From a virus, in IMG/VR virus record IMGVR_UViG_3300033145_001595, positions 38,929 to 102,928 of that record: 64,000 nucleotides of DNA. The stretch is one strand, 5' to 3'. The notes below the pieces were generated by a model that worked only from the letters and a program-made list of their open reading frames with translations, ran no database searches and was not told the origin of the DNA. Made by a program: the position numbers and the translations under genes. Below, one piece after another: positions 10,411 through 44,614 of the stretch (positions are counted from its first letter, which is position 1; every line of letters begins with the position of its first letter).

Positions 10411-10550
10411 GTTACATTAAACGACAAATAGATAATCGTATGTATGGGGAGTTTAGAAGAAATCAACCCATAATATTTAAGAAAAAGGAACCTGTAAAAA
10501 AAGTAATTAAACAGGTTCCTAAAAAAGAAACTTCTAACTGGTTACTTTAG
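10407..10550 (+). CDS. small basic protein at the end of the rightward unit
   Basis: A 47-codon frame starts at the ATGA overlap with the previous gene and ends with TAG at 10548-10550, overlapping the stop of the converging glycosyltransferase gene. The product is Lys/Arg-rich (KKKEPVKKVIKQVPKK). The inverted repeat that terminates the leftward operon is embedded in its codons. Start context and overlap favour a real gene, but it is very short. Confidence 0.5.
   Translation: MSYIKRQIDNRMYGEFRRNQPIIFKKKEPVKKVIKQVPKKETSNWLL
10481..10520 (-). terminator. intrinsic terminator of the leftward virion/sugar operon
   Basis: AGGAACCTGT (10486-10495) and ACAGGTTCCT (10511-10520) form a perfect 10-bp stem with a 15-base loop. 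On the minus strand it is followed by TTTTTC. It lies just past the stop of the glycosyltransferase gene at 10547. There is no T-run on the plus-strand side. Confidence 0.75.
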
Positions 10551-11521
10551 TACTCCCCATATGGTGTCCTACTCATTTTGGCAGAATCCAACCTAGGAAA
10601 GACAAACTTCTGCAAAAATTCCATTGACGAGAACTTAGAAATGGATACCATATGTGCCCTCTCCCCCCGAATACCCGGAGAATTTAATATGTCTTTCCAG
10701 TCCTCAGCCCAATGCCTACCGTATCGTTCTTTCAACCCTGCACACCAAAAATTCTCATAAATACTATCATCAAATAAAATCCTAGACGAATACACCCTAT
10801 TAATTACCTCATGCCACTTAGGCGTGCTATGTGGACCAAATCCCTTTATACCATGAAAATGATGGGCTTTTGTATCAACTAATATAGGCACATCTGCAAA
10901 CCAAGCCTTCATACACATAGTAGCATCGCTGTAAGACCAATAGCCGGGCAAATTGGCCCATCCATTAAGGTAATCATACACTGCCTTCTTCATGGTCATA
11001 CCACACGCATACGAGCCATTACGTCGTTGGTAATGAACAGGATGCTTATTCACTGACATGTACCATCGCCATTTACTTGCAGCAAACGTAAATCCACCTC
11101 CATAGTTCGTTCCTCTGACCGGAAGGTCCGGTAGTGGTGTCCAGGGGTCGGTAAGTCTGTGCTGTGTCAATCCAGGTGTTATGATACTGTCTGGATGCTC
11201 ATTAACGGATGCCTCTAATGATTCAAAGAAGCCGGGAGTTGGCCATACATGGGCATCTATGAAACAAATAGTATCTCCAGTACTAAGTTGTGCTCCCATC
11301 CTTCTACAATTTGAAACTCCCCCACGAGTTTCTTTTAATATAGGAAGGAACGTAGGATAACGATCTGCAAAACCTAAAAGAATTTCTCTTGTTTTGTCTG
11401 TTGAACAATCATCTATAATTATTAACTCGTGTGGGGACTCCGGTAAAACATCACATATAGCCTGCATCGACCGGGGAAGCCATTTTGCTTCATTATAAGT
11501 AGGTATGACAATGCTTAACAT
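10547..11521 (-). CDS. family 2 (GT-A) glycosyltransferase with DXH motif
   Basis: The protein opens with LSIVIPTYNEAKW and has IIIDDCSTD (34-42), the nucleotide-sugar binding pattern of GT2 enzymes. The metal-binding motif is FIDAHVWP, with DAH at 89-91 instead of the usual DXD; DXH is the form found in polypeptide GalNAc-transferases (GT27). A later YWSYSDATMCMKAW resembles the acceptor motif of that group. It is the last gene of the leftward unit and close kin to the two GT domains in the gene at 18494. The acceptor is unknown; Ser/Thr-rich virion proteins are the obvious candidates. Confidence 0.85.
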   Translation of the reverse strand: MLSIVIPTYNEAKWLPRSMQAICDVLPESPHELIIIDDCSTDKTREILLGFADRYPTFLPILKETRGGVSNCRRMGAQLSTGDTICFIDAHVWPTPGFFESLEASVNEHPDSIITPGLTQHRLTDPWTPLPDLPVRGTNYGGGFTFAASKWRWYMSVNKHPVHYQRRNGSYACGMTMKKAVYDYLNGWANLPGYWSYSDATMCMKAWFADVPILVDTKAHHFHGIKGFGPHSTPKWHEVINRVYSSRILFDDSIYENFWCAGLKERYGRHWAEDWKDILNSPGIRGERAHMVSISKFSSMEFLQKFVFPRLDSAKMSRTPYGEY

Positions 11522-12759
11522 TATTCTTCTCCAGTGTAAAACTTAACAATAGTGTTAACAACATATTTAACTTTTTCACGCGGAATAGTAGGCCACATAG
11601 GCAAAGATAAAATTCTTTCGGACATATGATCTGTAATTGCAAATTCATTTGTAATTTCAGTATTATTATTTCTTGTTTTGTACATAGGCATTGTATGTAA
11701 TGGATTAGGATAGTGAACACCTGTATGCACATCATGTTCTTTCAAGTAACTGACAAGTTTATCTCGCTGTTCAGCTAAAATAACAAAATGATGATAAACT
11801 GAATCATAATTTGTATTTGACAAACTATTATATTTAATATGGTCATTGCCAACAAAACTTATTGGTATACGATGTTTAAGAAAATAATGATAATACCATT
11901 GTGCTACCACTTTTCTTTTTAAGTTATTATATGAAAGTTTAGTTAATTTTCTTATTAATACAGCAGCTTGAAATTCATCAAGTCTACTATTATAACCAAG
12001 TAACGTATGTTCATTTTTTGCAGATTGTCCATGATGTTGTAACTGTTTTATTTTTAAAGCAACAAAATCAGCAAAACTAGAAGATTCCACATTGTTTACT
12101 GTAATTACACCACCATCTCCATAACAACCTAAATTCTTTATTGGCCCACAACTAAAACAACCAATGTCCCCAACACTTCCAAGTTTTTGTATTGGTTTGT
12201 TATTACTATTATTAAAATAACACCCACCATGTGCATGAGAACAATCCTCAATTAAAAACAATTTATGATTGTCCGCTATTTCCCGTAAACACGTAACAGG
12301 TTCAATATGATAAGAAGCATTTGAACTTACCCAAGTATAAATATCAGCAGGGATACCATGCATATGAACAACTAAAATAGCTTTTGTTCTCTTTGTTATT
12401 TTACTAATAACTTCTTCCACATTAGGGCCACACGATACCCTATCCACGTCAACTAAAATAGGTGTGGCTCCAACATGATAGATAGCTTCCAGGTCTGCCG
12501 CGAAAGCATTGTCCTGTAGGATTACCTCATCACCAGAACCTATGCCAAGAGCCAGCATTCCAAGGATAAGCGCATCTGTACCGCTTGCAACACCTACGGC
12601 GTATGTGGAACCTATGTACTCTGCAAATCGTGTCTGAAAGGCTGACAGATACGGACCTTTGAGTAGACGACCAGAATTCATTATATTAGTCAAGTCATTA
12701 CTAATTTCATTTTTAATATAATCATCTTCTACTGATAAATCTAATAAAGGCACATACAT
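11521..12759 (-). CDS. DegT/DnrJ/EryC1/StrS-type sugar aminotransferase
   Basis: This is a PLP-dependent enzyme that puts an amino group on a keto-sugar nucleotide. It shows GVASGTDAL (phosphate-binding loop), IEDCSHAHGG (Asp172) and GPIKNLGCYGDGG with the Schiff-base Lys at 208. A short insertion near residues 145-158 is unusual. Next to it is a Gfo/Idh/MocA dehydrogenase; such pairs make 3-amino sugars in O-antigen and capsule pathways. It overlaps the glycosyltransferase start by one base. Family confidence is high, exact product unknown. Confidence 0.9.
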   Translation of the reverse strand: MYVPLLDLSVEDDYIKNEISNDLTNIMNSGRLLKGPYLSAFQTRFAEYIGSTYAVGVASGTDALILGMLALGIGSGDEVILQDNAFAADLEAIYHVGATPILVDVDRVSCGPNVEEVISKITKRTKAILVVHMHGIPADIYTWVSSNASYHIEPVTCLREIADNHKLFLIEDCSHAHGGCYFNNSNNKPIQKLGSVGDIGCFSCGPIKNLGCYGDGGVITVNNVESSSFADFVALKIKQLQHHGQSAKNEHTLLGYNSRLDEFQAAVLIRKLTKLSYNNLKRKVVAQWYYHYFLKHRIPISFVGNDHIKYNSLSNTNYDSVYHHFVILAEQRDKLVSYLKEHDVHTGVHYPNPLHTMPMYKTRNNNTEITNEFAITDHMSERILSLPMWPTIPREKVKYVVNTIVKFYTGEE

Positions 12760-12777
12760 TTTTACACTCTTTTCTAT

Positions 12778-13833
12778 TTATGAATTTATGTCTGTAACAT
12801 TAAAATTCTTACGTTCTAATGCATCACAAACGAGAAAGGTAGCCGGTGCTGCATCTGATATGGAGCATAGTGGTGTGGCATCATGGCGAACACAATCATA
12901 AAAATTCTCATAAATATCTACTGATTCAACAGTTTCTCCAATACTTAAAATAGGAGCTTCACCTTTACTATGAACCTCAATATAATTTTGTGTAACAGTA
13001 ATAGTTTCTCCACCATAACTACGAATTGTAATAGTGGGAGTTCCATTTTTATCCATAACTGTAGAACCAGAATAAACAAATTCTATTTGTTTTCTTTCAG
13101 AAGATATTTGACAACTTATATTTGCTTTATCATCCATTTCTAAGCCAATACAATTTTTCCTTATTTTGTAAAAATAAGCTCGTATATCATCAAAAGAAAA
13201 ACCACCAGAAAGTTCACATACACCAGCAAGCCATAGTCCTAATTGAATCCAATGAATACCTTGATTCATAGTAGAACCATCAAACAAATCCATACCATTA
13301 AAGGCACGCTTACCAAACCATTGAGAATTATCATAATAAGCATTTTCTCTACGACAGGGTACTATTATTTTTATACTTTCTACTGAATCTTGATTTTCAA
13401 AGATATTTTTTTCAATATAAAGTTTAGCAGCCTGTGCTGTTTTATCTCCCATATGATGATACCCAATACATAATTTACTTCCTTCATGTTTACGCATTAC
13501 TTCTTTTATTTTGCATACTCCTACTATATTAGGAGCTAAAGGTTTTTCACAGAAAACAGCAACACCCCTACTAAGAAAATATTTTACTATTTTTTCATTT
13601 AATGCATAAGGTACTGAAACAAAAACAGCTTCAAGTTTGGGATCACTAGGGAAACTAGCAATTTTTTCATAATCATATACTCGCTTTGGTCCATGTATAT
13701 GTCTTTTAGAAGAATCACATACAGAAATAACATTAAAATTCAATGAGTTCTCAAGAGCATTATAATGTGTATGACCCCTCTTGCCCATTCCTATAACTGC
13801 TACATTAACTGGCTTACCATTACTCGTTCCCAT
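12778..13833 (-). CDS. Gfo/Idh/MocA family oxidoreductase
   Basis: A Rossmann motif, VAVIGMGKRG (11-20), and CEKPLA (95-100) place it in the Gfo/Idh/MocA family of NAD(P)-dependent sugar dehydrogenases. About 350 residues is the normal length. In amino-sugar pathways such an enzyme makes the 3-keto sugar that the neighbouring DegT-type aminotransferase uses. AGAGGG precedes the ATG. The pathway role is inferred from pairing. Confidence 0.88.
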   Translation of the reverse strand: MGTSNGKPVNVAVIGMGKRGHTHYNALENSLNFNVISVCDSSKRHIHGPKRVYDYEKIASFPSDPKLEAVFVSVPYALNEKIVKYFLSRGVAVFCEKPLAPNIVGVCKIKEVMRKHEGSKLCIGYHHMGDKTAQAAKLYIEKNIFENQDSVESIKIIVPCRRENAYYDNSQWFGKRAFNGMDLFDGSTMNQGIHWIQLGLWLAGVCELSGGFSFDDIRAYFYKIRKNCIGLEMDDKANISCQISSERKQIEFVYSGSTVMDKNGTPTITIRSYGGETITVTQNYIEVHSKGEAPILSIGETVESVDIYENFYDCVRHDATPLCSISDAAPATFLVCDALERKNFNVTDINS

Positions 13834-13851
13834 CTGTCTGCCCTCTCTATC

Positions 13852-14631
13852 TTATACTGTAAAGTAAGGGGTAACTACGTTCAAGTACATCTCCCAAAGA
13901 AGTTGCTCTACCTCAATATCTACTTTTGTACTATCCCATTGCACTATACCAATTCCAGTTGCCCACGGTCTAAGCTTCCTATCCCATTCATCTATACCTA
14001 TAGTTTTATAAATAATGCCTTGCTTATCAAAAACATTTGTTAACCTACCCCAAGCACGTTTAACAAGCTTCGTTCTACCTACATCGTGAAAGCCAATGAC
14101 ACCACCATCCACAACATATTTACGAAATGCTAAATAATCATGTACAACATGATTAGTTTTATGACACCCATCAATATAAAGAAATTGACACATTCCAAAT
14201 TTAGTTGCTATTATTTGCGCTCGGGGATCAACTGAATTACCAACAAATTGTTCTACATAAATTCCAGATGTCCTCATATAATCTAAAGCTCTATACAAAG
14301 GAGCAGTAGCATGTTTTCTATCACATAAATCTATTGATAAAAAACTACAAGTACGTGTAGGATCAAATAAACTATTAAATGCTAATCCGGTTCCACCACA
14401 GTAAGAACCAATTTCAATAATTTTACAAACCTTATGACCTAAATTTGTTTCAATAATTTCATTTACCATTTGGCATAAACGCACTAATTGACTAGTATCA
14501 TGTCTAATTTCACATTCAAGCTCATCTGCTTTATTTACCATGTCCATAACACGATGTGCTATATCCAAAGAACCATAATCTTTTCTGTTTAATTCACCCC
14601 GTAAATCAAGTGACTCTTTTTGAGTAACCAT
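13852..14631 (-). CDS. SAM-dependent methyltransferase (CmcI/TylF-like)
   Basis: The class I methyltransferase motif IIEIGSYCGGTG (71-82) is followed by FLSIDL, LYIDGCH and GVIGFHDVG. This order is typical of the CmcI/rhamnosyl O-methyltransferase type, which methylate sugar or antibiotic hydroxyls. It sits inside the glycosyltransferase cassette and abuts the next gene, so it could methylate the phage-made glycan. The acceptor is not shown by the sequence. Confidence 0.82.
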   Translation of the reverse strand: MVTQKESLDLRGELNRKDYGSLDIAHRVMDMVNKADELECEIRHDTSQLVRLCQMVNEIIETNLGHKVCKIIEIGSYCGGTGLAFNSLFDPTRTCSFLSIDLCDRKHATAPLYRALDYMRTSGIYVEQFVGNSVDPRAQIIATKFGMCQFLYIDGCHKTNHVVHDYLAFRKYVVDGGVIGFHDVGRTKLVKRAWGRLTNVFDKQGIIYKTIGIDEWDRKLRPWATGIGIVQWDSTKVDIEVEQLLWEMYLNVVTPYFTV

Positions 14632-15570
14632 TTAACATTCCTTTCCTATTTTTTCAAAATACATTCCAACACGTCCTGTTGAAAGTCGCCTTGTAAACCT
14701 ACCAAACTCTTTATCACGATCTTCTAATTTACTAATAAATTCTAATAATTTCATATAAACTACTTCTAATCTATCCATTGTAAAATCAACATAATTATCT
14801 TCAAGGTACGGTATCAAAGGATACCCATTACCAAAATCTACATTCTTTTCTTTCCAAAGTCGTCCAGCTTTTGCATCAGCTTTACCAGACCGACACAAGT
14901 GTTTTAATCCATCGTAAATTCTATATACATAAGTATATGCATCAAATGGTGGATTTGGATGATGAATAATTTTATTTCTTTTATGGTAATCCATAATAAG
15001 CGGTAATTCAATACTTCTATTACCTACTTTGTAAGGAACACTAGTACCCGCTCTAAAAATCATTTGACCATCATACCTACCAGTGCGTATATCAAGTGGT
15101 TTCCATTTTGGTGATGGAACATACTTTGGATCACGCATCCTCCAAGCAGCTTCATATTTAACACATTCCATATCTTCATTATCAAGTAATTTTCCAACTC
15201 CATATTCAAGATGCCACGGAAGATAAATATCATCATCTTCCCAATGTGCAATAAAGTCTGTTTCAGCATTATCTAACAATGATTGTTTTTTATTACTAAG
15301 TTGTTCGTACTCATCACTATTAACTATTCGTATAGCCTTTTTAGTAGCAACATATTCATATTCGTACTGTGGCTCTCCTACATCATCAGTATAAAGCACA
15401 AGCGGCGTAGGTGCATCATTACCAATGACCAGTGTAGACATTCCGGGATAGCCCTGAGACAAAAACGATGCTATAGCATCTCGTACTTTATCATGTCTAC
15501 CATATGTAGGACAGATACAAGTAACATGAGGCCAGTAGTAATGCTCAAAAAGTCTTTTTTTCAATGGCAT
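14632..15570 (-). CDS. GT-A glycosyltransferase
   Basis: The sequence starts with THVTCICPTYGR-type strands (CICPTYGRHDK near residue 18) and contains IAHWEDDDIYLPWHLE, a DXD-type nucleotide-sugar site. It is a paralogue of the neighbour at 15580: both have CPTYGR, a DDD site followed by LPWH, and a RYDGQMI/RFDGQMI segment. The C-terminal third is unlike other families I know. The two proteins may add successive sugars. Confidence 0.78.
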   Translation of the reverse strand: MPLKKRLFEHYYWPHVTCICPTYGRHDKVRDAIASFLSQGYPGMSTLVIGNDAPTPLVLYTDDVGEPQYEYEYVATKKAIRIVNSDEYEQLSNKKQSLLDNAETDFIAHWEDDDIYLPWHLEYGVGKLLDNEDMECVKYEAAWRMRDPKYVPSPKWKPLDIRTGRYDGQMIFRAGTSVPYKVGNRSIELPLIMDYHKRNKIIHHPNPPFDAYTYVYRIYDGLKHLCRSGKADAKAGRLWKEKNVDFGNGYPLIPYLEDNYVDFTMDRLEVVYMKLLEFISKLEDRDKEFGRFTRRLSTGRVGMYFEKIGKEC

Positions 15571-15579
15571 ATTATTGTA

Positions 15580-16470
15580 TTACCACTTTTCCAATCCAAG
15601 AGAAAGTTGAATTTTTGTATTTACCCTTGCTGCTACTTCTTCTGGAAGTCTAGCAACATCATATAAAGATTTACCAAACCGTTCAAACATAGGTCGCAAA
15701 TGATAAATTGCCCAATCCTTAAGCATAGAACTTGTCATTACTGGCACTAGATAATTATTCCCAAAATCCTTATTCTTTGCAGAATATAATCTTTGTATTC
15801 GTAAATTAGGAGCATTACTACCAATTTTATGTAAATGTCTTACATCATCATGTCGTCTGTATATGTAACTATACATTTCTTTTGTTACACTACCGGATGG
15901 TGCTAATAACGTTCCTTTTTCCTTGAAAGCATGAGCAACCATTCTTGGTACACGTCGTTCTAAATTTGAATCATATTCTATTTGAGTACCATTAATATAA
16001 ATCATTTGCCCATCAAATCTCTGTCTGTAAAGAGACTCAGCCTTTTCCTCTCCAGGCTTACCACCACAGAACCATGCTACTCGTGGCTTAACACATTCAC
16101 TACCCTCAGTATTAGCATAATGTTCTAAGTAAGGAATCCAAGTACTAAAATGCCAAGGAAGAAATAAATCATCATCATCCCAATGCGCCAATAAATCAGT
16201 ATCAGAAATATCTACTAATTCCTGTCTTTTAGCTCCCAATGTTTTACAACGTTCACCGCGATTGAAAATATTTATTCTTGACCCATCTGACAATTGTATC
16301 GTATTCTCATTACCATAAGAAAGTTTAATTGGAACTTCAGCATCATTAATAATATTCATTTCTTTATGGCCTTCATACTCTTGCAGTATGAAGCAAGCAG
16401 CAGAATCCCGTAGCCGGTGAAACCTACCATACGTCGGGCACATAGCTGTTACTGAATGTAACTTGCTCAT
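15580..16470 (-). CDS. GT-A glycosyltransferase, paralogue of neighbour
   Basis: It shares CPTYGR, LLAHWDDDDLFLPWHF and RFDGQMIYINGT with the gene at 14632 and a similar length, so the pair arose by duplication and diverged strongly. The Asp cluster would bind the nucleotide sugar and metal. It overlaps the upstream methyltransferase gene by four bases (ATGA-type), indicating translational coupling. Confidence 0.78.
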   Translation of the reverse strand: MSKLHSVTAMCPTYGRFHRLRDSAACFILQEYEGHKEMNIINDAEVPIKLSYGNENTIQLSDGSRINIFNRGERCKTLGAKRQELVDISDTDLLAHWDDDDLFLPWHFSTWIPYLEHYANTEGSECVKPRVAWFCGGKPGEEKAESLYRQRFDGQMIYINGTQIEYDSNLERRVPRMVAHAFKEKGTLLAPSGSVTKEMYSYIYRRHDDVRHLHKIGSNAPNLRIQRLYSAKNKDFGNNYLVPVMTSSMLKDWAIYHLRPMFERFGKSLYDVARLPEEVAARVNTKIQLSLGLEKW

Positions 16471-17105
16471 GCTGTAAATCCCTTTCTTCTACGGGTAATA
16501 ATTTTTTTTGCAACAAGAACATCATATTCCTTATGCTGTACAAAATGAAAAATCTGTGTTGCCCAACCATTTTTTGATAAAAAGTAATCTATAATTGTTT
16601 GTATGTTATACTGATTCCATAATATACATTTCTTATTCGGGTGGGAAACGCCTACACGCTCACCCTCCTCATAGTTAATACCATTGAAAAAAGAAGCTAT
16701 AATGATTTTAGGATTTATTGCTATTGCCCAATCAAAAAATTCATCAATACTATTCAAATGCTCAACTACAGCAAAAGCACAAACTAAATCTATATTACGA
16801 TTACCTGACATACGGAAAGAACTAATATTTCTAAAATCATTATGAATGAATCTACTATTACAATGAGGCCAAAGTTGATCGCATGTACTTTCTGATTTAC
16901 AAACATCTATGTTTGTATAAGTTCCACCAGTAGGTAACATTTTAGGAATAGGACTATAATTACCACCTACTTCAATTACACGAGAAACATTATTATTACT
17001 AATAACTTCTTTTACAAACTTCCAAGCATCCTTATGCCTTCTAATCATACGAACATATTTTTTACTATCACGGCTCTGCCAATAATCAATTTCTGCTTTT
17101 TCCAT
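16467..17105 (-). CDS. SAM-dependent methyltransferase-like protein
   Basis: VIEVGGNYSP (about 43-52) replaces the usual D/E-x-G-x-G-x-G motif I. It is followed by YTNIDVC, and AFAVVEHLNSIDEF is the motif with the conserved His of Methyltransf_11-type proteins. Motif I is weaker than normal, so activity is uncertain. It lies between two glycosyltransferase-type genes and overlaps the downstream one. Confidence 0.65.
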   Translation of the reverse strand: MEKAEIDYWQSRDSKKYVRMIRRHKDAWKFVKEVISNNNVSRVIEVGGNYSPIPKMLPTGGTYTNIDVCKSESTCDQLWPHCNSRFIHNDFRNISSFRMSGNRNIDLVCAFAVVEHLNSIDEFFDWAIAINPKIIIASFFNGINYEEGERVGVSHPNKKCILWNQYNIQTIIDYFLSKNGWATQIFHFVQHKEYDVLVAKKIITRRRKGFTA

Positions 17106-17117
17106 GTTGCCCCTTTT

Positions 17118-18491
17118 CTACTTTTCAGCAATAACGGCAAAATCTTTTCCAAGCATGTAACTTTTAACTACATTAAAATTTGCTTTTTCAAAAAGATTCA
17201 AAACATCAGAACAGCATTGCATTGTATGGCAATGATCCCCCTTAAAGCTAATGCCACCCTTAAACTCAATAGGCACAACAATCATAGCGTACCCACCAGA
17301 TTTCAAGACTCGTTTTACCTCTGAGAGCACTTGAACGGGATCATGACAATGCTCAAGATTATGAAATTCAGTAACAGCCCGAAATGTATTATCTTCATAC
17401 CTACTAAGATCATGTGCATCACCCTGTTCAACTGGACGCCCATTATCATAAGCCCACTTAGCAGACCAAGGAGACAACTCAATACCATGAATAGTATTAT
17501 ATTCAAATCCACATTCCATTAAATAATTTAATACATATCCATCCCTAGAACCTATGTCCAATAAAGGAAGATCTTCCCTTTCCAAATAACCTTCCTCGTC
17601 CAAAAACTCTAAGAAACTATTAACATCACGCCTTTGTCTCTTCTTATCAGGATACCAGTCCCTACCCGGCGAACGCTTTGCTTGGTATGCTACATAAGCA
17701 GCTTGTCCACTTGGCTTTGCTAAACCTAAATCAGTATCCAAAGTTAATGCTACTTCGGGCTCTTTCCAAATAGCCTTTCGGAAAAAAATTTCTTCTTGAA
17801 CTACTCTATGTTCTTTCATCCAACTTTTTTCCGAATCCACCTTAACCTGCATTTTTATTAGTTTCAAATTTTCTTCTTGATTACTGGAAAGGCAAAGAAA
17901 TAATTCTTTTTCTTTCACTTCCCCATCAATTCCAATAACTGTACGCATAAATTCTTCTTTGAACAAGGCTTCAAAAGTCATATCTTCAAAATAAGCTGTA
18001 TGAATAAAATAATCATTATGTATTGATCTATAATAAATTGTAGAACGTGCTTCATTAATAAATATGTCAGAAACACTATACACTTTAACACCACTAAAAT
18101 AAGCTTTAAGTCCAATTGCTATACAATCACCATCATACTCAGATTCAGGTAATTGACATGGAGCAAGTTTTTCAACAACATTTTTATTCATAAAAATCAA
18201 TGGTCCAAACGGTGCTTGTACTCGTAAAAACCTGTAAGGCTTACCTTTCCGAGTAGGAAGTGGTTCTTCGGTAAATTCAGTATGAATTAATGTACTTAAA
18301 CTCCAATTAGCATTATTTACTATAGTCTTTGATTCATCATTTGCTAAACGTATAATAGTAGGTACTAAAACATGATCCTGTTCTTTAGCAACAACTATCA
18401 TGGCACTAATAGTATCTAAATCATAAGTACCATTATCAAGATTTTTAACATCACCAGCAATAGCACCCCAATCATAAAATCTAATACCCAT
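17118..18491 (-). CDS. two-domain protein: GT-A-like domain plus methyltransferase
   Basis: The C-terminal 155 residues are a clear class I methyltransferase: LLDIGSRDGYVLNYL, IHGIELS, VEQGDAHDLS, AVTEFHNLEHC and LKSGGYAMIVVP. The first 300 residues contain a glycosyltransferase-like nucleotide site region (LIFMNKNVVEKL, SEYDGDCIAIGLKA), which is much less certain. A fusion of sugar transfer and methylation would suit a glycan-building cassette. The gap to the gene at 18494 is two bases. Confidence 0.75.
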   Translation of the reverse strand: MGIRFYDWGAIAGDVKNLDNGTYDLDTISAMIVVAKEQDHVLVPTIIRLANDESKTIVNNANWSLSTLIHTEFTEEPLPTRKGKPYRFLRVQAPFGPLIFMNKNVVEKLAPCQLPESEYDGDCIAIGLKAYFSGVKVYSVSDIFINEARSTIYYRSIHNDYFIHTAYFEDMTFEALFKEEFMRTVIGIDGEVKEKELFLCLSSNQEENLKLIKMQVKVDSEKSWMKEHRVVQEEIFFRKAIWKEPEVALTLDTDLGLAKPSGQAAYVAYQAKRSPGRDWYPDKKRQRRDVNSFLEFLDEEGYLEREDLPLLDIGSRDGYVLNYLMECGFEYNTIHGIELSPWSAKWAYDNGRPVEQGDAHDLSRYEDNTFRAVTEFHNLEHCHDPVQVLSEVKRVLKSGGYAMIVVPIEFKGGISFKGDHCHTMQCCSDVLNLFEKANFNVVKSYMLGKDFAVIAEK

Positions 18492-18493
18492 TT

Positions 18494-21400
18494 TTATTTA
18501 CCTTTCGAATCATAATTAATACTCAAAAATTCCATAAAATCCTCTGCATGTGTTCCCCCACCTGCTTTTCCAAGCATAGCAAAGAAATCTCCATCTGTCT
18601 TTCCATAGGCCTCTTTAAGTTTTGTCCAAATAGCACGCGCTTTCTGAACCTCTTCAGACTTCAAAAAAGTATCTATCCTATCATCATAACCATGCTCAAG
18701 AAGATATGGCTTAAAATACTCATAAGCTACATCACCAAAGAACAAATAATGAATAAGATGAGCATTCATTAATGTACCCACATGAGGAACGTCCATAGTA
18801 CCCTTTTTGTACATATGCTCAAAAGTAATATCTCTAGACGCATACATAGGTACTCCTATAATCCAAGCAGCTAAACCTATGTACTGTTCATTGTACGCCC
18901 ACAGTCCAGGTAAGGTAGGCCAGCCCCCAAGTCGATTTAACACCTTTTTGCTCATAACGTAACCAGCCCCAATAATAGCATCACGTCGAATAAAAGGAGT
19001 ATCCGGCTTAGTGGTGATATGAGAATTAAGAATACCCCATTTGGGTTTAAGAGAGAATCGCGCTCCATACGTACGAGCTTCTGACTTCTTAGCATTACCA
19101 AGATTACAAACATTTACTACCACAATACCGTCTTTCTCCTGAGCATGTGCTGCCGCCCATTCAATACCATATTGTGTAATAACCCTCTGGTGACAATCCA
19201 TAACACAGATCATTTCACCACGAGCAACAGAAATAGCCTCTGCCCTACTCCTAGAAACACCAATACGCTCAGTATGCCTAATTATACGAATCCTATCCTG
19301 TATATCTGCCCTCCAATGTCCGGCAAGCTTTGGACGAATATTGTCTGCAATATTATCCGGGATGCTTCCATCGGTAGAGGCATCATCAACAAGAATAATT
19401 TCAAACCTAGTTTGTCCACTATTGATAATGGATCGTAATGTTAATTCGACTTCTTTACCCTCATTATAGGCAGTAAGAATAACAGAAATCGGTAGTACCT
19501 TTTTAATAGACTGATTATGCTCTCCACAGGTTTCAGTAGGTACTCGCAGAACATCACGGAAGAATTCAGCATCAGAATGAATTCTACCTTTCTGCCAATG
19601 GCCCGTCTCGTAAAGTTTACCTGCCTTCATAGCTTCTAAAGTACTGCGGTGTTCGGGACTTATTTGATTTATGTAATGAGGTTCCCAAACATTTTCATAT
19701 GTTTCCCGATCAAACAAAGCAAGATGGGAAGCAAGATGGTTTAGATTCAAGTCACTTGTTGGAGGATAACCCCAAGGCGGCTCTTTACTACCCTTTGCAG
19801 CTTCAGACCTATAAAGATGCCGCACAGTGTACTTGGGGAAACAATAGCATTCAACTCCATGTAACCATGCCCACGAATTCAATGCCGATTCTTCATAACC
19901 CCATTTGCCATTGATAGACGGCCAACGTGTAAGATCATCAAAAATCTCACGAGGCACAAAATAACAAGCTCCTAAAACACCCGTTGTTAATTCTGGATCA
20001 GTACCTTTAGTTCTATAATAAGAACATCCAATTTTACCATCCCTATGATAATTAAGTTTTGCCCCCCAACCTTGAGGACCACCAAACATTGCAGCTACTC
20101 CGGGACAGGCGATAGCGTGCTTTTCTAAGACGAACCCACCTATCTCATGCCACATTCCCTTTGGATAGCGCATATGAGCATCTGAGCTAACTACTACCCG
20201 ACCACGCGCGGCTGCAAAGCCAATGTTTCTTGCCATGCCAGCACCAACAGATTTTTTCAATGTGATTACTATAACATAGGCATTATTAGTATTATACTTG
20301 TTCAAACCCTCACATGACCCATCTGTAGACGCATCATCCACTACGATTACCTCCAACGGGCCTGTAGTGGCCGCTATGGCACTTTCAACAGTCTTAGCAA
20401 CCTCTTCCCCCTCATTCATAGAAGCATACACCACAGACACCATAAAATCAGATTTCATAGTAGTAAATGACTCATCTGTATGTGGCGGGGGTGCTACACC
20501 GGGGAGCACGCCGAAGGGATGGGTTTTCCTATCCTTAACACGTTCTTCTGCGGTTGGAAGGGGTCCAACTTTTTCCACTGTATTTGTTTTTACTATTTCC
20601 TTTTTTGGAGTTAGTCGCATGTTTACTGGTTGCTCCTGTTCTATACCATTATTAAGTAATCGAGTTACCTCAGAAAATACTATTCTACTTATTTGACAAA
20701 AATCTTCATACGGTGTAATAGTCGTAATTTTTTTACCCGTTGTTGGGTCTGTGCTAATAACAATTCTATTACCACACATAAGATCAACAAAACATGGACA
20801 ATTACATGTTGGGGCACATTCACAATCTTGACATTGAGCATTAGTAGGGAAAGGTGTAATTTTATCATAAATAGTAGTAGCTGGATTATTTAGTTCTGCT
20901 ACATTAACACCATTTTTTAAGTCACCAATTTTATAAAAGTTTCTTCCATCTATAGCTGCTTTATAGCACCCAAAAATATCACCAGATGCATTTACGGCAC
21001 ACCTACTACTTGCTACACCACAACTACCACAATTATTACCCTTTTTACATATCTCTGCACCCTTATATGTAAATGTGTACGATCCATTCAGAAAACTAAG
21101 GCGCTTGCCCTTTAATGAACTACTATTAAGAAAAGAATCAGCACACTCACGTATTTGCAAATCTAACGTAGAATAAAACTCAGACGGCCATTCTGGCTCA
21201 ATACATATGAATTCCACTTCTACCAAATCTGTAAAACTAAGTAAATGCAAAGCACTTTTTGCCATATCAACAATAGTAGCTTGGGTAACAACCATCTTAA
21301 TAGTAGGATGCAACCCAAGCAAACGCATATCTTTCAATGCAGAATGTGCAACACCAAACTTTACACCATTCTTATGCACTGAATTTATTGATTCATCCCC

Positions 21401-21862
21401 ATCTACATGAGCTTCTACAATAATATTATGTTCTTTAAGAAATGCAATCTTTTCCCCATCCATATTCTGCAAATTAGTTTTTACTGTTATCTCTGCATCA
21501 AGGTCTAAAACATTACTAATATTACGAGCAGTAGATAAAAGAAAAGAAGTAACTGTAAAATTCAACAAAGGTTCTTGACCAAGAAAATTTATCTTAATCT
21601 TCCTCTTCTCTTTTTTAATAAGAACTATATTATCTTTTTCCTTTTTCTCCTCTTCCTTTTCTTCCACAATCTTTTCCGCAGCTACAGAAGCTATATGCAT
21701 ATTCAAAAACCACGTAATAGCATTAGCAAAATTAGTTTGAATCTTCTCTGCGGATGCCGGAGCATTGTCTGGCCCGCTCTTGTTCGTACAGTAATCACAC
21801 GTCAAGTTACAACCCCATTGAAAAACTAAATCCAGTTCTGTAGGTAAAAACCTATCAACCAT
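18494..21862 (-). CDS. radical SAM/SPASM - GT2 - GT2 fusion protein
   Basis: About 1122 residues with three modules; residue numbers count from this start. First, a radical SAM domain with C18-x3-C22-x2-C25 (WGCNLTCDYC), FLGQEPLL, and a cysteine-rich SPASM region (about residues 272-363) such as CGSCG...C and CQDCECAPTCNCPC, which would hold auxiliary iron-sulfur clusters as in peptide-modifying enzymes. Second, a GT2 domain (about 470-720) with VVDDASTDGS, DAH and KWGYEESALNSWAWLHG. Third, another GT2 domain (about 790-1040) with VDDASTDGS, DCH and LWAYNEQ. Both use DXH, as in GalNAc-transferases. The start at 21862 is chosen for the GGAG leader; an upstream in-frame ATG at 21913 exists. I know of no described enzyme with this architecture. 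Confidence 0.88.
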   Translation of the reverse strand: MVDRFLPTELDLVFQWGCNLTCDYCTNKSGPDNAPASAEKIQTNFANAITWFLNMHIASVAAEKIVEEKEEEKKEKDNIVLIKKEKRKIKINFLGQEPLLNFTVTSFLLSTARNISNVLDLDAEITVKTNLQNMDGEKIAFLKEHNIIVEAHVDGDESINSVHKNGVKFGVAHSALKDMRLLGLHPTIKMVVTQATIVDMAKSALHLLSFTDLVEVEFICIEPEWPSEFYSTLDLQIRECADSFLNSSSLKGKRLSFLNGSYTFTYKGAEICKKGNNCGSCGVASSRCAVNASGDIFGCYKAAIDGRNFYKIGDLKNGVNVAELNNPATTIYDKITPFPTNAQCQDCECAPTCNCPCFVDLMCGNRIVISTDPTTGKKITTITPYEDFCQISRIVFSEVTRLLNNGIEQEQPVNMRLTPKKEIVKTNTVEKVGPLPTAEERVKDRKTHPFGVLPGVAPPPHTDESFTTMKSDFMVSVVYASMNEGEEVAKTVESAIAATTGPLEVIVVDDASTDGSCEGLNKYNTNNAYVIVITLKKSVGAGMARNIGFAAARGRVVVSSDAHMRYPKGMWHEIGGFVLEKHAIACPGVAAMFGGPQGWGAKLNYHRDGKIGCSYYRTKGTDPELTTGVLGACYFVPREIFDDLTRWPSINGKWGYEESALNSWAWLHGVECYCFPKYTVRHLYRSEAAKGSKEPPWGYPPTSDLNLNHLASHLALFDRETYENVWEPHYINQISPEHRSTLEAMKAGKLYETGHWQKGRIHSDAEFFRDVLRVPTETCGEHNQSIKKVLPISVILTAYNEGKEVELTLRSIINSGQTRFEIILVDDASTDGSIPDNIADNIRPKLAGHWRADIQDRIRIIRHTERIGVSRSRAEAISVARGEMICVMDCHQRVITQYGIEWAAAHAQEKDGIVVVNVCNLGNAKKSEARTYGARFSLKPKWGILNSHITTKPDTPFIRRDAIIGAGYVMSKKVLNRLGGWPTLPGLWAYNEQYIGLAAWIIGVPMYASRDITFEHMYKKGTMDVPHVGTLMNAHLIHYLFFGDVAYEYFKPYLLEHGYDDRIDTFLKSEEVQKARAIWTKLKEAYGKTDGDFFAMLGKAGGGTHAEDFMEFLSINYDSKGK

Positions 21863-21897
21863 TCTCCATTCTCCTAAGTTACACAGAAATTGCCCAT

Positions 21898-22272
21898 CTA
21901 CTCTATTACACACCTAGCTCTAACATAAAAGCGACAAAGAAAATTGCAACTACGGGCAGAAAGCTCATATCCATATCTAGCTGGATGTTTACACCGAAAT
22001 CGCCTAGAACAACACAGTCCTGTTTCCTCAGCATCTTTACACATTCCAGCAGTGGATGCAATGGTATCATGGATATTTGGTCTTTTTGATAGGTAGTTGT
22101 CATTGTTTATAGGCAGACCGTAAGGACAGTCAAAATCTACATTAACTATGTCAGAAAAAATCTTACACTTTTCTTCACGCCATAATCTCATTTGACGACA
22201 AACATGAACAGCTTTTTTGCCCTTACATATTTGAGCACAAACTTCCTCACGAAATAATCTTATTCTTCTCAT
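21898..22272 (-). CDS. small cysteine-rich protein upstream of the radical SAM-GT fusion
   Basis: The 124-residue protein has about twelve cysteines spread over its length, is rich in Arg and Lys, and contains FDCPYGLP. No signal peptide is seen. Its stop lies 35 bases before the chosen start of the fusion protein. Cysteines could bind zinc or an iron-sulfur cluster, or it could be a substrate or partner of the adjacent radical SAM/SPASM enzyme. None of these is shown; I recognise no family with confidence. Confidence 0.7.
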   Translation of the reverse strand: MRRIRLFREEVCAQICKGKKAVHVCRQMRLWREEKCKIFSDIVNVDFDCPYGLPINNDNYLSKRPNIHDTIASTAGMCKDAEETGLCCSRRFRCKHPARYGYELSARSCNFLCRFYVRARCVIE

Positions 22273-23929: not shown

Positions 23930-24997
23930 TTACGGAAGTTCCCTTAAACACATTCTGCCAGCCGGTTCTCCACCAGCTATTCCAGTAGCATTCACATAAA
24001 CAGAAAGAAAGTTTCCGGGATCGTCTCTCAAATGGCATGGAATGAATGTGAAAAGTAATGATTCTGGATCAGTTTTACCTAGTATTCCATAAGAACCGTT
24101 TCTTATCATCAGGTCAGGTGCGCGATAAACTTTGAAAGAACTACCCACTACAACACCATCATTGCCACAATACTTTACATCATACTGTACTTCATTTGCA
24201 GTCATATCCTCTTGTGCTTTTATTAAAGTACCTATTTTACCGCTGCTGTTACATGGGATAAGTACTGGATACAAGGAAGCTGGATTTGTTTTTCCAATAA
24301 ATGCATATTCATCTGTTAATATTATAATTCCAGGGGGTCGATAAACATCAAAAGCAACTCCCACTACAACACCAGTAGCATTACAGTATTTTACTTCATA
24401 AGCTATACCATCAACTGTCATGTCCTCTTGAGCTTTTACCAAACTACCTATAGTACTACTTGAACCTGCACCGGGAGCGAATAGAACGGCGTTGTAAGTA
24501 ACTCCACCATATACTTTCTCACCAAGATTTATTAATGGACCATCATCTTGTGCTTGAACAACAGTACTACCATTTGTAGAACCCAATCTATCACCTACAG
24601 CAACATCAAGACCTTGAACAAGACAAGCTCCATAGATATACACCCATCCCGCATAACCATCATCAATACGCTGATCTGTAATTCCTACAAACTCTAAATT
24701 ATCTGCTGTAGGAGTATCAAAAGTTGGAAATATTTTAGAATTATCTCCTGTTACTATCCCATCAAGTTCTACTAACTGTGCTATATCTATAGTTCCACCA
24801 GAAGTATTTTGTGCCATAATCCGGGACTGCATAGAAGGCCAACCAAAAATACCATTTGTTGATGCAATTATAGAATTTGTCCTAATACCATCTACTATTA
24901 AGTTCAAATCCTTTGCCATTATAGGATCGCCACTTTCATAGGAAGCTGGTAAGGACGCTGCCTGTGCCATTGGGCGAACTGATTCTCTATCTGACAT
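23930..24997 (-). CDS. putative virion protein with internal repeat
   Basis: Residues 183-250 and 254-322 are two copies of a roughly 68-residue module, each containing KAQEDMT, a VKYC motif, DGVVVG or TGVVVG, VYR.P and IPC. The first 170 residues are different and contain VQGLDVAVGDRLG, a style common in phage decoration or fibre proteins. It lies between the tape measure side and the receptor-binding candidate. A tail-tip or fibre role is likely but unproven. Confidence 0.65.
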   Translation of the reverse strand: MSDRESVRPMAQAASLPASYESGDPIMAKDLNLIVDGIRTNSIIASTNGIFGWPSMQSRIMAQNTSGGTIDIAQLVELDGIVTGDNSKIFPTFDTPTADNLEFVGITDQRIDDGYAGWVYIYGACLVQGLDVAVGDRLGSTNGSTVVQAQDDGPLINLGEKVYGGVTYNAVLFAPGAGSSSTIGSLVKAQEDMTVDGIAYEVKYCNATGVVVGVAFDVYRPPGIIILTDEYAFIGKTNPASLYPVLIPCNSSGKIGTLIKAQEDMTANEVQYDVKYCGNDGVVVGSSFKVYRAPDLMIRNGSYGILGKTDPESLLFTFIPCHLRDDPGNFLSVYVNATGIAGGEPAGRMCLRELP

Positions 24998-25008
24998 TAT
25001 TATATTCC

Positions 25009-28577: not shown

Positions 28578-28964
28578 TTAAGCTACCGTAGTGGTAACAC
28601 CAGCGATGTTCAAATAACCAGAACCCTGGAATGAGAACACTACCGACGCAACACCATCTACAGTAACACTTAATGAAACAGAAGTAATAAGAATTGCTCC
28701 AGTGTACAAAACACCAGCAGTCGCAAAGAACTCTGCTGCTGCCGCTGGTTTTCCTGGATGGGAAATCTTTGTCGTGTTATCAAGTCTACACTCATACTGA
28801 CCAGACCATGTTCTAAGACCGCCAATATATTCTCGATACCCATTACCTGCAAACGTAGTCACTTCTAAGGCATCTGCGGCGTAATCAATAGACCAACTGA
28901 AAACACCAGTTTTATAACCAGAGGCGAATGTAACATTTCCACCTTTTCCACTTATTGCCGCCAT
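28578..28964 (-). CDS. tail tube protein, short paralogue
   Basis: 128 residues without extension. It shares ISGKGGNVTFASGY, WSIDYAADALE, GGLRTWSGQYECRLDN and SLSVTVDG with the two genes upstream, so three copies lie in tandem. Position before the chaperone genes marks the family as the major tail (tube) protein. This copy, lacking any Ser-rich tail, is the best candidate for the main tube subunit. GGAG precedes the start. Confidence 0.8.
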   Translation of the reverse strand: MAAISGKGGNVTFASGYKTGVFSWSIDYAADALEVTTFAGNGYREYIGGLRTWSGQYECRLDNTTKISHPGKPAAAAEFFATAGVLYTGAILITSVSLSVTVDGVASVVFSFQGSGYLNIAGVTTTVA

Positions 28965-28986: not shown

Positions 28987-29697
28987 TTATGGTTCTGTAC
29001 TAGTACTACTTGTTGAGCTACTTGTTGAGCTACTTGTTGAACTACTGGACGAGCTACTAGACGAGCTACTACTACTAGATGAACTACTCGTTGTCGTACT
29101 CGTTGTCGTGCTCGTTGACGTGCTGCTGGACGTACTAGATGAACTACTAGACGAACTACTACTAGTAGGTGAACTACTTGAACTAGACGAGCTACTTGAA
29201 CTAGTAGGTGAACTACTTGAACTAGACGAGCTACTTGAACTAGTAGGTGAACTACTTGAACTAGACGTACTACTTGACGAACTAGTAGTTGAACTGGTAG
29301 TAGATGACGAACTAGTAGTAGTTGTCACTACACCGGCTATAGTAATATGACCAGAACCTTGAAAAGAGAACGTTGCGGCTGAAAGCCCGTCAACAGGAGT
29401 ACTTAAAGAAATAGAGGTAATAATAATACTACCACTATAAGAAATGCCAGTAACCGCAAGAAATGTTGCAGCCGCCGCATCATGGCCCGGATGTAAAACT
29501 TTTACTGTGTTATCAAGTCTACACTCGTACTGACCAGACCAAGCTTTTAATCCAGGAATATAATTTCTATAACCACCATCCGCGAAATCTGTTGATTCCA
29601 AGGCATCGGCCACATAGTCAATCGACCAACTGTATACATTTGTGGTGTATCCAGAGACGAAAGTAACATTTCCATTCTTTCCACTTATTGCTGCCAT
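28987..29697 (-). CDS. tail tube paralogue with mucin-like Ser/Thr tail
   Basis: Residues 1-125 are a tube domain nearly parallel to the 128-residue paralogue (ISGKNGNVTFVSGY, WSIDYVADALE). The remaining 110 residues are almost only Ser and Thr with regular Pro (SSSSPTSSSS). A flexible Ser/Thr tail on a tube subunit would project from the tail surface and could carry O-linked sugars. GGAG precedes the start. Confidence 0.85.
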   Translation of the reverse strand: MAAISGKNGNVTFVSGYTTNVYSWSIDYVADALESTDFADGGYRNYIPGLKAWSGQYECRLDNTVKVLHPGHDAAAATFLAVTGISYSGSIIITSISLSTPVDGLSAATFSFQGSGHITIAGVVTTTTSSSSTTSSTTSSSSSTSSSSSSPTSSSSSSSSSSSPTSSSSSSSSSSSPTSSSSSSSSSSTSSSTSTSTTTSTTTSSSSSSSSSSSSSSSSSTSSSTSSSTSSTSTEP

Positions 29698-29718: not shown

Positions 29719-31095
29719 CTACGATATTGTAACTGTTGCGGGACACGTAGTGCAATCCCCTGAGTCCAAAGAATATATGCCATCTGGACAATCACTATCT
29801 CCCCATGCTTCCATTTTCCAAACACATGATTCACCCAATGATCCAACTGTAAGAGTCCAATAACCACTAACACAATCAAGATCAGCATCACATGAGTCAT
29901 TACCACCAGTTCCCGCCCAATCACAACCAAACGTCCTATTCAATGTATATGAACCAGTACAATCTGCTATTCCACAATCTATAGTTCCTGTCAATGTAAA
30001 CGAGTACGATTCATTACAACCATCACACGTACCGGACGGGCAAGTAGGGGGCATTGGGGTTGTTGACGATGTTGACGATGTAGATGAACTACTTGAACTA
30101 CTCGTTGGGGAACTACTGGTACTGGATGAACTACTTGAACTTGAAGGTGAACTACTAGTACTGGATGAACTACTTGAACTCGTTGGAGAACTACTTGAAC
30201 TGGACGAACTAGTAGGAGAGCTACTAGAACTACTACTTGTGGGTGAACTACTAGTAGATGTTGAAGAACTTGGTGTAGAATTTGAACTGGATGATGATGG
30301 ACTAGAAGATGTGGACGAACTGCTTGAACTGCTCGTTGGAGAACTACTTGAACTGGATGAACTGCTACTACTCGTTGGAGAGCTACTTGAACTGGATGAA
30401 CTACTAGTACTCGTTGTACTGCTCGTTGTACTAGTGGATGAACTCGTACTTGATGAACTTGACGTGGTTGAAGTGGAACTACTGCTGGACGAACTCGTTG
30501 GTGAACTACTTGAACTAGACGAACTTGAAGGTGTACTACTAGAACTACTTGAACTCGAAGCAGAACTAGACGAACTACTACTACTTGACGAACTCGTTGG
30601 AGAACTACTAGTAGAGGACGATGAACTAGTAGTAGTAGTTGTCATACCAGTTACAAATGGACATGGCACTCCAATTGCATAATACACCCCATCTGGATAT
30701 ATGCCCTCTTCCCCTGGTTGAACTACTCCACCTGTAATGCGCAAATGCCCTGTACCAGTAAATGCAAACACAACATTGCAAACACCATCCACAGGAACAC
30801 CCAAAGACATATTAGTAATAATTGCACTACCTTCATATGCTGCTCCCGCTTCTGCCTCTAACATTATATCAGCAGCAACCCTACCGGGCGGTCCTACCAA
30901 TGCTATATTATCTAATCTACATAAAAATTGACCAGTAAATGATTTTAGACCGGGAATGTGGTACTTATAACTATTCGATACCCAATTAGTAGTTTCTAAT
31001 GCATCGGCGTTGTATTCCATACTCCATTCATGCACACCAGTTGTATAACCTGTTGTGAATATGACTCTTCCAGTTTTTCCAGATATAGTTGCCAT
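29719..31095 (-). CDS. tail tube paralogue with long Ser/Thr/Pro stalk and Cys-rich tip
   Basis: This third tube paralogue (ISGKTGRVIFTTGY, GLKSFTGQFLCRLDN) is followed by a Ser/Thr/Pro stalk of about 195 residues and then a C-terminal domain of about 110 residues with some 14 cysteines (CPSGTCDGCNESY, DADLDCVSGYW, CVWKMEAWG). The tip looks like a small disulfide- or metal-stabilised beta domain, perhaps for binding. No strong Shine-Dalgarno is visible, which may keep this form scarce. Confidence 0.85.
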   Translation of the reverse strand: MATISGKTGRVIFTTGYTTGVHEWSMEYNADALETTNWVSNSYKYHIPGLKSFTGQFLCRLDNIALVGPPGRVAADIMLEAEAGAAYEGSAIITNMSLGVPVDGVCNVVFAFTGTGHLRITGGVVQPGEEGIYPDGVYYAIGVPCPFVTGMTTTTTSSSSSTSSSPTSSSSSSSSSSSASSSSSSSSTPSSSSSSSSSPTSSSSSSSTSTTSSSSSTSSSTSTTSSTTSTSSSSSSSSSPTSSSSSSSSSSSPTSSSSSSSTSSSPSSSSSNSTPSSSTSTSSSPTSSSSSSSPTSSSSSSSSPTSSSSSSSTSSSPSSSSSSSSTSSSPTSSSSSSSTSSTSSTTPMPPTCPSGTCDGCNESYSFTLTGTIDCGIADCTGSYTLNRTFGCDWAGTGGNDSCDADLDCVSGYWTLTVGSLGESCVWKMEAWGDSDCPDGIYSLDSGDCTTCPATVTIS

Positions 31096-34270: not shown

Positions 34271-35245
34271 TTAAGGAGCAGTTGACGTACTAGAACTAGA
34301 CGAACTCGTACTAGAACTCGTAGAACTAGACGAACTCGTAGAACTGGACGTACTCGTACTAGAACTCGTAGAACTAGACGAACTCGTAGAACTGGACGTA
34401 CTCGTACTAGAACTCGTAGAACTAGACGTACTAGAACTTGAACTCGTAGTCGTGGTAGTTGCACTAAACGACTGACCAGAATAGTTCCGCGACTTGTAAC
34501 ATCTAACAATATCCACACCAATGTTTCTAACAGCCTGCCCCGCCCTAGTCTGAACAGCAATATAAGGCGTAAGCAATGCAGCCGGTGCAACCGCAGATGC
34601 AATAGACCCACGATATGTACCATTAATATAGAAATCCACATTCCCACTACCATCAATCTCAATTCTCAATGCCTGATAGCCACCAGCGGCTACAGTATCA
34701 GTAAGATCAAGAGCCTGCGTAGTTCCGGCGTTATTTGCAAGTCCAGTAAGGTTAACGTTAGTAGCCCCGTCTGTATCAAATGCAATAACAACACCATTTG
34801 CACAATTAGCATTCGGAGTATCAGGATCAGCAAAAGCTAATCGCCTGCCCGGATACCACTGCTCATCAGCAAAGCCAGCTTCTATATGAACGGTAGTGAT
34901 AGCAGCCGGTGCGATAACGGCCTCAAACACGACCCTATCAGTTTCCATCCCACTATTACCCTCATCGCCACAGCGCCAGTTAAGCTGCTGTGACAACTGC
35001 ACAGTATCATCATCCGTATTACCAGTACGCAACTCATAAATACCATTATTCGCAACGCGTACTAACCCGCCACCAGTTCCATCGGCAAAAACATTCCATT
35101 CATCCTGTATCTGGTCGCCTAAAAAATCATCGTGTAACTGTACACCGAAAATTTCAATTCGACCACCATCTCTAGCATCAAGATGATTAGTATATTCCTG
35201 AATAAGAATGGAATTGGTCTGCCTAATTCCTTCATTCTTGGGCAT
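34271..35245 (-). CDS. lectin-like virion protein with Ser/Thr tail
   Basis: Residues 1-265 look like a concanavalin/LamG jelly roll: FLGDQIQDEWNVF, FEAVIAPAAIT, LRIEIDGSGNVDFYINGT. The last 60 residues are a pure Ser/Thr repeat. It is encoded beside the capsid and decoration genes, so a head fibre or decoration role is likely, with the jelly roll possibly binding sugars. GGAGT precedes the start. Confidence 0.75.
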   Translation of the reverse strand: MPKNEGIRQTNSILIQEYTNHLDARDGGRIEIFGVQLHDDFLGDQIQDEWNVFADGTGGGLVRVANNGIYELRTGNTDDDTVQLSQQLNWRCGDEGNSGMETDRVVFEAVIAPAAITTVHIEAGFADEQWYPGRRLAFADPDTPNANCANGVVIAFDTDGATNVNLTGLANNAGTTQALDLTDTVAAGGYQALRIEIDGSGNVDFYINGTYRGSIASAVAPAALLTPYIAVQTRAGQAVRNIGVDIVRCYKSRNYSGQSFSATTTTTSSSSSTSSSTSSSTSTSSSTSSSSSTSSSTSTSSSTSSSSSTSSSTSSSSSSTSTAP

Positions 35246-43636: not shown

Positions 43637-44614
43637 TTACCCTTTCTTTGTAGTAAGGTTTACCTTATTTATTACATCTTGAAGCCCTTCGCGCAATCCA
43701 AACATATTATAATCTTGCCCTAATACCTTAAACATTTCAGTATTATCTAATGCTCCAAAACCCTCACTATCTATTTTTACAGAGGATATAGGATTATTAA
43801 CATTAACATTTATCTTATTACCCAACAAATCATTCATTAATTCAACAACATAATCATAACTTACTGCTACACCACTACTAACATTAATTACTTTACCAAC
43901 AACATCCATATTACTAGATGCTTTTATTGCTACATTAACAGCATCTCTAACATGAATAAAATCATGCATCTTCTCATTAGAATTAGCTGGGAGGGCACAT
44001 GGTCGACCCGCTATTGCAGCTTCTATAATTCTAGGCATAACTCGAACATTATTACTAAACCTTGTATGTCCATATATGCAACTAAATCTAAGAATTACAA
44101 CTGACATATCATCTTCTGCAAATTGTTTATGCCAAGCCAAACAATACTGTTCAGCAGCTAACTTACTAATACCTATTGGTGTATTAGGACGAACAACATC
44201 AACACTTCGTGGAAAACCTTTAGAAGTTCCCTCGGCTCCATAAGTACCATAGATAGAATGGCACGAACCCAAAACAATTTTTTTAACACGTTTAACATTA
44301 CAAGCATTTAATATACTTTGTGTGCCAATAATATTGGTAGATGAAACATTTTCTGGTGCTTCCCAAGACCTATTTAAATTAGTTTCAGCAGCAAAATGAA
44401 AAACAACACTTACATCTTCCATTGCCGCTAAAACATCCTCATACCTACATACATCACCCATTTTTATTTCTGCATAGCCCCTAACACTAGCTAGATTATC
44501 CATATTACCAGATATAAAATTATCAAGTATCCTTACCTTATAACCATCATTTACTAGCTTAGAGGCTACAGCCGAACCAAGAACTCCGGCACCACCAGTA
44601 ATTAAAATGGGCAT
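43637..44614 (-). CDS. NAD-dependent epimerase/dehydratase-like protein lacking the catalytic Tyr
   Basis: The Rossmann motif ITGGAGVLGS (5-14), HFAAETN and SKLAAEQY identify an extended short-chain dehydrogenase of the sugar epimerase group. The YxxxK active site reads I147-GIS-K151, so the catalytic tyrosine is replaced by Ile (codon ATA). GSCHSIYG holds the expected Ser. It could be a binding or scaffolding protein, or use a changed mechanism. It lies far from the sugar cassette but on the same strand. Confidence 0.85.
   Translation of the reverse strand: MPILITGGAGVLGSAVASKLVNDGYKVRILDNFISGNMDNLASVRGYAEIKMGDVCRYEDVLAAMEDVSVVFHFAAETNLNRSWEAPENVSSTNIIGTQSILNACNVKRVKKIVLGSCHSIYGTYGAEGTSKGFPRSVDVVRPNTPIGISKLAAEQYCLAWHKQFAEDDMSVVILRFSCIYGHTRFSNNVRVMPRIIEAAIAGRPCALPANSNEKMHDFIHVRDAVNVAIKASSNMDVVGKVINVSSGVAVSYDYVVELMNDLLGNKINVNVNNPISSVKIDSEGFGALDNTEMFKVLGQDYNMFGLREGLQDVINKVNLTTKKG

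Follow-up and report, generated by a model that had tools for sequence, protein, structure and literature searches.

In the window examined here (the whole stretch of 64,000 nucleotides that was analysed), the gene at 18494..21862 on the minus strand encodes a single polypeptide in which a radical SAM core, a SPASM region, a linker and two glycosyltransferase (GT) domains of the GT2 type, A and B, follow one another. This gene may specify an enzyme that O-glycosylates virion proteins and carries out an additional radical step, a reading to which we give about an even chance. The proposal builds on the identity of the domains and their motifs, on the position of the gene, on the Ser/Thr tracts found in proteins of the same phage and on the recurrent coupling between such tracts and related GTs, all of which are seen at the sequence level.

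The minus-strand open reading frame spans 18494-21913 and would comprise 1139 codons if started at GTG, but an ATG at 21862, with AGGAG upstream, appears the likelier start and yields 1122 codons, as compared to at most 250 codons for the longest stop-free frame when the same bases were shuffled 500 times. The first-pass annotation of this DNA had described a single frame of about 1122 codons at 18494-21862, which was recovered with coordinates matching the ATG start, and profile HMMs and motifs agree with the domain order given there, a peptide-type radical SAM/SPASM part followed by two GT2 domains. That two adjacent genes were merged artefactually, in assembly or sequencing, is very unlikely, since the frame remains open, GC by codon position is coding-like (GC1>GC2>GC3) across the Pro-rich linker that leads from SPASM to the first GT (20459..20656, minus strand), and other radical SAM-GT2 fusions exist. 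In favor of an artefact, the radical SAM-GT junction is known from a single assembly, the present contig, with no second copy found on any other contig searched and no match to its DNA pattern elsewhere (in a search that may exclude very near records), and an internal Met near residue 486 aligns with the position at which the GT-GT protein of phage contig L008 begins. GC3 is also unequal between the SPASM (0.13) and GT-A (0.33) parts, but the measured genes themselves span 0.13 to 0.41. The GT-GT junction is present as well in two independent contigs, L008 and L009. No full-length relative of the fused protein was found among viral contigs, phages or plasmids; two matches from the phage collection, MT837768 and MT839555, look like bacterial DNA (their contexts showing a SCIFF-type maturase beside SbcCD-like genes and GTs beside a SecA-like gene) and were discarded as phage relatives. 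Within the linker (window 20500-20650, minus strand), an in-frame ATG at residue 432 (Met432) has ACAGGAG just upstream and is a possible internal start, from which a GT-GT-only product could result.

The radical SAM core (21044..21862, minus strand) presents the features expected of its superfamily, a class with a partial TIM barrel, namely the cysteine motif C-x3-C-x2-C at 21788-21811 (C35, C39 and C42 in GTG numbering) and a SAM-binding GGEP-type motif in which GQEP replaces the usual GGEP, and it carries an additional insert of ~30 residues (EKIVEEKEEEKKEKDN). Its Pfam Radical_SAM score is 29.2 bits for the whole protein and 32.2 bits in the genome search, with a cut-off of 29.5. The SPASM region (20696..21022, minus strand) contains all seven cysteines in the complete pattern C-x12-G-x4-C ... 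C-x2-C-x5-C-x3-C ... C, in agreement with the C-x(9-15)-G-x4-C ... C-x2-C-x5-C-x3-C ... C signature of the seven-Cys SPASM subfamily, and none of these cysteines varies when 12 radical SAM/SPASM proteins are aligned. Among solved structures, the radical SAM profile matched CteB (1.2e-69) and then anSME (2e-36), which were also the top folds in a Foldseek search of the structure model, a model of modest confidence (pLDDT 61.5) that is poorest in the SPASM and cluster loops. The radical SAM domain with C-x3-C-x2-C called in the first-pass annotation is hence upheld by motif, near-cut-off Pfam score and top folds, and its cysteine-rich SPASM region by the full invariant motif, with a score of 26.0 bits (E 9.6e-6) for TIGR04085, the SPASM model of NCBIfam, a single bit below the cut-off of 27, and no match of Pfam SPASM PF13186 to a 163-aa piece of the protein.

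In its C-x3-C-x2-C motif, its seven-Cys SPASM region and its best profile and fold matches, the fused protein is akin to anSME and to the CteB/PapB-type thioether maturases. PapB/CteB-type RiPP maturases carry an N-terminal RiPP recognition element. This element is absent from the fused protein and would have no room there, because the core starts within ~15 residues of the start codon. Also unlike these maturases, the fused protein is joined to GTs and comes without a known precursor peptide. These differences bear on the alternative of a glycosylated RiPP, in which the 124-aa protein encoded immediately upstream of the fused gene (21898..22272, minus strand) would be cross-linked by the PapB/CteB-like domain and then glycosylated by the GTs in glycocin-like fashion, as by SunS. 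While the 12 Cys of that small protein and the presence of SunS among the PDB relatives of the GT profile fit this alternative, and the PapB ranthipeptide maturase model (NF047865) is the best NCBIfam match of the fused protein (E 2.5e-25), the 89 bits obtained are far below the curated cut-off of 340, the recognition element is missing and the 124-aa protein is without matches in all libraries searched and without relatives in phages, all of which make a glycosylated RiPP distinctly unlikely. The 124-aa protein is a possible accessory protein or peptide substrate.

GT2 domains A (19544..20446) and B (18584..19498), both on the minus strand, carry the DXH motifs DAH (20174-20182; D578-A-H580 of the fused protein) and DCH (19190-19198; D906-C-H908), and their two stretches together score 146.3 bits against Pfam GT2 (cut-off 23.3), in accordance with the two GT2 domains with DXH motifs that had been annotated. 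In searches against the PDB, the GT profile matched ppGalNAc-T10 (2.3e-32), chondroitin synthase (8.6e-32) and then many GalNAc-Ts. Like the ppGalNAc-transferases (GT27), the fused protein combines a DXH metal motif (DAH, DCH) with a GT-A catalytic fold and shares with them a W-x(n)-E...W..G block; unlike them, it is phage-encoded, shows ~20% identity and has two tandem catalytic domains. The ppGalNAc-transferases use UDP-GalNAc as donor and a peptide as acceptor. Their matches cover the catalytic part only, and the ricin-type C-terminal lectin domain of these enzymes was not found in a Pfam scan of the whole protein. Chondroitin and heparosan synthases likewise hold two GT-A domains per chain, and the pair might constitute a processive disaccharide synthase making a polymer. 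The structure model of the GT-GT part is confident (pLDDT 83.7), and Foldseek returned for it GalNAc-Ts and dual-GT synthases, with heparosan synthase as the top match spanning both domains, which adds to the chondroitin synthase profile match. TM-scores across both domains are, however, only 0.26-0.28, so the domain arrangement of dual-GT synthases is not matched; moreover, the fused protein differs from these synthases in having DXH in both domains, and the match of single domains to GalNAc-Ts is the closer one. Polymer synthesis is on this evidence clearly improbable.

The first-pass annotation had deemed the order of domains undescribed, and no paper describing a radical SAM-GT2 fusion was found in a literature search. 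Searches with phmmer yielded no radical SAM-GT fusion other than that of the window, and a broader radical SAM profile uncovered six further radical SAM-GT2 fusion ORFs in phage contigs, so that at least six exist, in each of which Pfam placed both domains above cut-off. With these six in hand, the notion that a radical SAM-GT fusion is unique was dropped: the joining of radical SAM and GT2 activities recurs among phages. Radical SAM precedes GT2 in L097 (6702-8756) and L078 (4663-6774), and the reverse order occurs in L122 (8001-9986), L277 (4468-6366), L020 (1-2016) and L089 (6426-9434). All six resemble the enzyme of the window in uniting radical SAM and GT2 in one polypeptide, but their radical SAM parts belong to other types, and each has only one GT2, which in L097 and L078 has DPD/DSD rather than DXH. 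The order of radical SAM followed by GT is hence not novel in itself, whereas the exact build, in which tandem DXH GTs follow a CteB-like SPASM enzyme, has been seen once, on one assembly.

The source record (102,928 bases) contains head, portal, terminase and tape-measure genes of a tailed phage, for whose portal protein no relatives were found by search. The fused gene lies directly downstream of the tail genes in the same transcription direction, the order being tape measure and tail-region genes (25750-27879, 23930-25734, 22276-23907), the 124-aa gene, the fused gene and an island of further genes. The first of these (17118..18491, minus strand) encodes the C-terminal half of a third GT, with the nucleotide-binding half missing, together with a methyltransferase; across 371 residues, its product shares 37% identity with the C-terminal GT-methyltransferase portion of an L009 protein that fuses two GTs and a methyltransferase. 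The rest of the island (10547..17105, minus strand) comprises GT2-like genes (15580-16470, a weak match, 14632-15570 and 10547-11521), methyltransferase genes (16467-17105, also weak, and 13852-14631), a Gfo/Idh/MocA dehydrogenase gene (12778-13833) and a DegT aminotransferase gene (11521-12759). The Gfo/Idh and DegT pair might form a WlbA/WlbE-like route to a 3-amino sugar, and a nucleotide-sugar epimerase/dehydratase (LegB, RmlB, GalE-like) is encoded at 43637..44614 (minus strand).

An island of this kind could alternatively convert the surface polysaccharide of the host (serotype), with the fused enzyme acting on a lipid-linked glycan and its radical SAM domain on a sugar. O-antigen conversion of the GtrB type involves a partner flippase and a membrane anchor. 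The nearest phage GT families bear the PHROGs label 'GtrB-like O-antigen conversion', radical SAM and GT2 genes co-occur in polysaccharide-type clusters and fusions of GT2 followed by radical SAM exist (L277, L122, L020 and L089), but surface conversion is rather unlikely in view of the location of the gene within the late tail region, the polypeptide acceptors of the most similar solved GTs, the closest affinity of the radical SAM core being to peptide- or protein-modifying enzymes, and the association of close GT relatives with Ser/Thr-tract virion proteins. Glycosylation of modified DNA bases (DNA hypermodification), which phage GTs are known to perform (reference cited in PMC12619734), is highly improbable for a late tail-operon gene whose closest solved GT counterparts have polypeptides or polysaccharides as acceptors.

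Candidate acceptors for virion-protein glycosylation are encoded by the same phage, four of whose virion-region proteins contain long Ser/Thr tracts. Three paralogues in tandem, which we read as tail-tube-like from position and size alone, as no family model names them, include two with such a tract, both candidate acceptors: one has a Ser/Thr-rich C-terminal tail of ~119 residues (28987..29697, minus strand; residues 118-236), and the other a tract of ~210 residues (29719..31095, minus strand; residues 145-354) and a Cys-rich C-terminal module. The remaining paralogue (28578..28964, minus strand), 68% and 50% identical to the tailed two, is bare. The other tract-bearing proteins, both on the minus strand, are encoded at 34271..35245, with a Ser/Thr C-terminal tail (residues 254-324), and at 46299..48017, with two tracts (residues 193-290 and 395-444). 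This last protein seems frameshifted past residue ~445 (46299-48017 and 46189-46701, minus strand), where its 572-aa frame becomes a VVVVQVRLVHPQ repeat and the Ser/Thr reading goes on in another frame; either misassembly of the repeat or genuine slippage could account for the shift. Relatives of the tail-tube-like proteins were located in other phages at six loci, five of which were read out at the match. None of these five ends in a Ser/Thr tail, and the surroundings of all six loci yielded no GT. By eye, similar-looking Cys-rich modules alternate with or trail Thr/Ser tracts in tail proteins of several phages (L082 2242-4530, L237 1114-4533, L242 5664-6344 and window 29719-31095), and these modules are a possible unrecognised virion domain.

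Scans with GT alignments gathered tandem-GT relatives in L008, L009, L082 and L237 and single-GT relatives in L083-L085, L240, L242 and L243. At all four tandem-GT loci, the GTs lie downstream of tail genes bearing Ser/Thr or Thr/Pro/Val tracts. In the first scan, tracts were present at 3/3 close relatives, compared to 2/109 other phage GT2 loci (p 4e-5), under a criterion fixed only after seeing L008, L009 and L082. Since this choice was post hoc, the criterion was re-applied unchanged to loci first brought up by a later scan, where tracts accompanied three of the four top matches and none of 38 others (p 3e-4, with small numbers). At L240, the sole miss, the protein encoded immediately upstream is rich in Thr but falls short of the strict criterion, and the DXH-GT relatives L083-L085 show no tract by the same criterion. 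Orthologous stand-alone radical SAM genes, 74% identical, are found in the islands of L082 and L237, and a further one in that of L242. Pairwise BLAST detected no similarity between the stand-alone radical SAM of L237 and the radical SAM domain of the window, and the two therefore need not do the same job; over 153 loci, the association of radical SAM presence with Ser/Thr tracts is suggestive only (p 0.06). In bacterial genomes, the GT alignment retrieved generic GT2 alone, and neither phmmer nor later profiles found a fused ORF there. In another phage group, Ser/Thr-tract proteins (L050 3288-3701 and 9018-10724) flank a GT cluster located directly after the capsid gene. For mycobacteriophages, capsid and tail-tube proteins are reported to carry C-terminal glycans (cited in PMC12619734), a system that has in common with the one proposed here the use of phage GTs and of such C-termini as glycan sites; unlike the fused enzyme, the mycobacteriophage system is presented there without mention of a radical SAM domain.

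In the proposed mechanism, the fused enzyme would be made late, beside the tail genes, for modifying virion proteins. Its two GT-A-fold DXH domains would draw on nucleotide-sugar donors to attach one or two sugars at Ser/Thr residues in the tails of tail-tube-like and other virion proteins, as family, position and co-occurrence suggest, and the dehydrogenase, aminotransferase, epimerase/dehydratase, methyltransferases and additional GTs encoded in the neighbourhood would make and finish the glycan. Family resemblance points to a radical SAM/SPASM domain that would convert SAM to a 5'-deoxyadenosyl radical and alter the same acceptor, with the polypeptide as the most likely target (e.g., Cys or Ser, as with CteB and anSME) and the sugar a less likely one, and the fusion would hold both activities on one substrate. 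The first-pass annotation had suggested a protein target, which is plausible given that polypeptide GalNAc-transferases are the most similar solved GTs and that the same phage encodes Ser/Thr-rich virion proteins; we infer the two-step action on a single target, as we do the acceptor, the donor, the order of steps and everything on the radical step. Several observations count against virion glycosylation, including a poly-Ser tract in L301 with no GT found within ~10 kb upstream and 8 kb downstream, the absence of tracts, by the criterion used, at L083-L085, a dual-GT fold that also resembles polysaccharide synthases, the 'GtrB-like' PHROGs labels and the modest radical SAM model.

A broader and more doubtful extension, which we advance tentatively, is that mucin-like O-glycosylation is widespread among tailed phages with Ser/Thr-rich virion tails, which would carry beside their tail genes GalNAc-transferase-like DXH GTs and a radical SAM enzyme making a further modification on the same protein, the two being fused here. 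If true, phages would decorate their own particles by mucin-like O-glycosylation, with radical chemistry built into the same enzyme, and the adjacent Ser/Thr tails would give a concrete substrate to many GT2 and radical SAM genes that are now orphans in phages. Such decoration would bear on the interaction of particles with surfaces and host immunity, and the fused protein would offer a compact two-activity enzyme for study.

Two further features of the window may be recorded. A 281-aa ORF at 485-1330 (plus strand) shows a weak radical SAM match confined to the cysteine motif (Pfam E 7.4e-5, below cut-off). The terminase large subunit (5175-7667, plus strand) displays LAGLIDADG and Hint-like matches and therefore probably harbors an intein.
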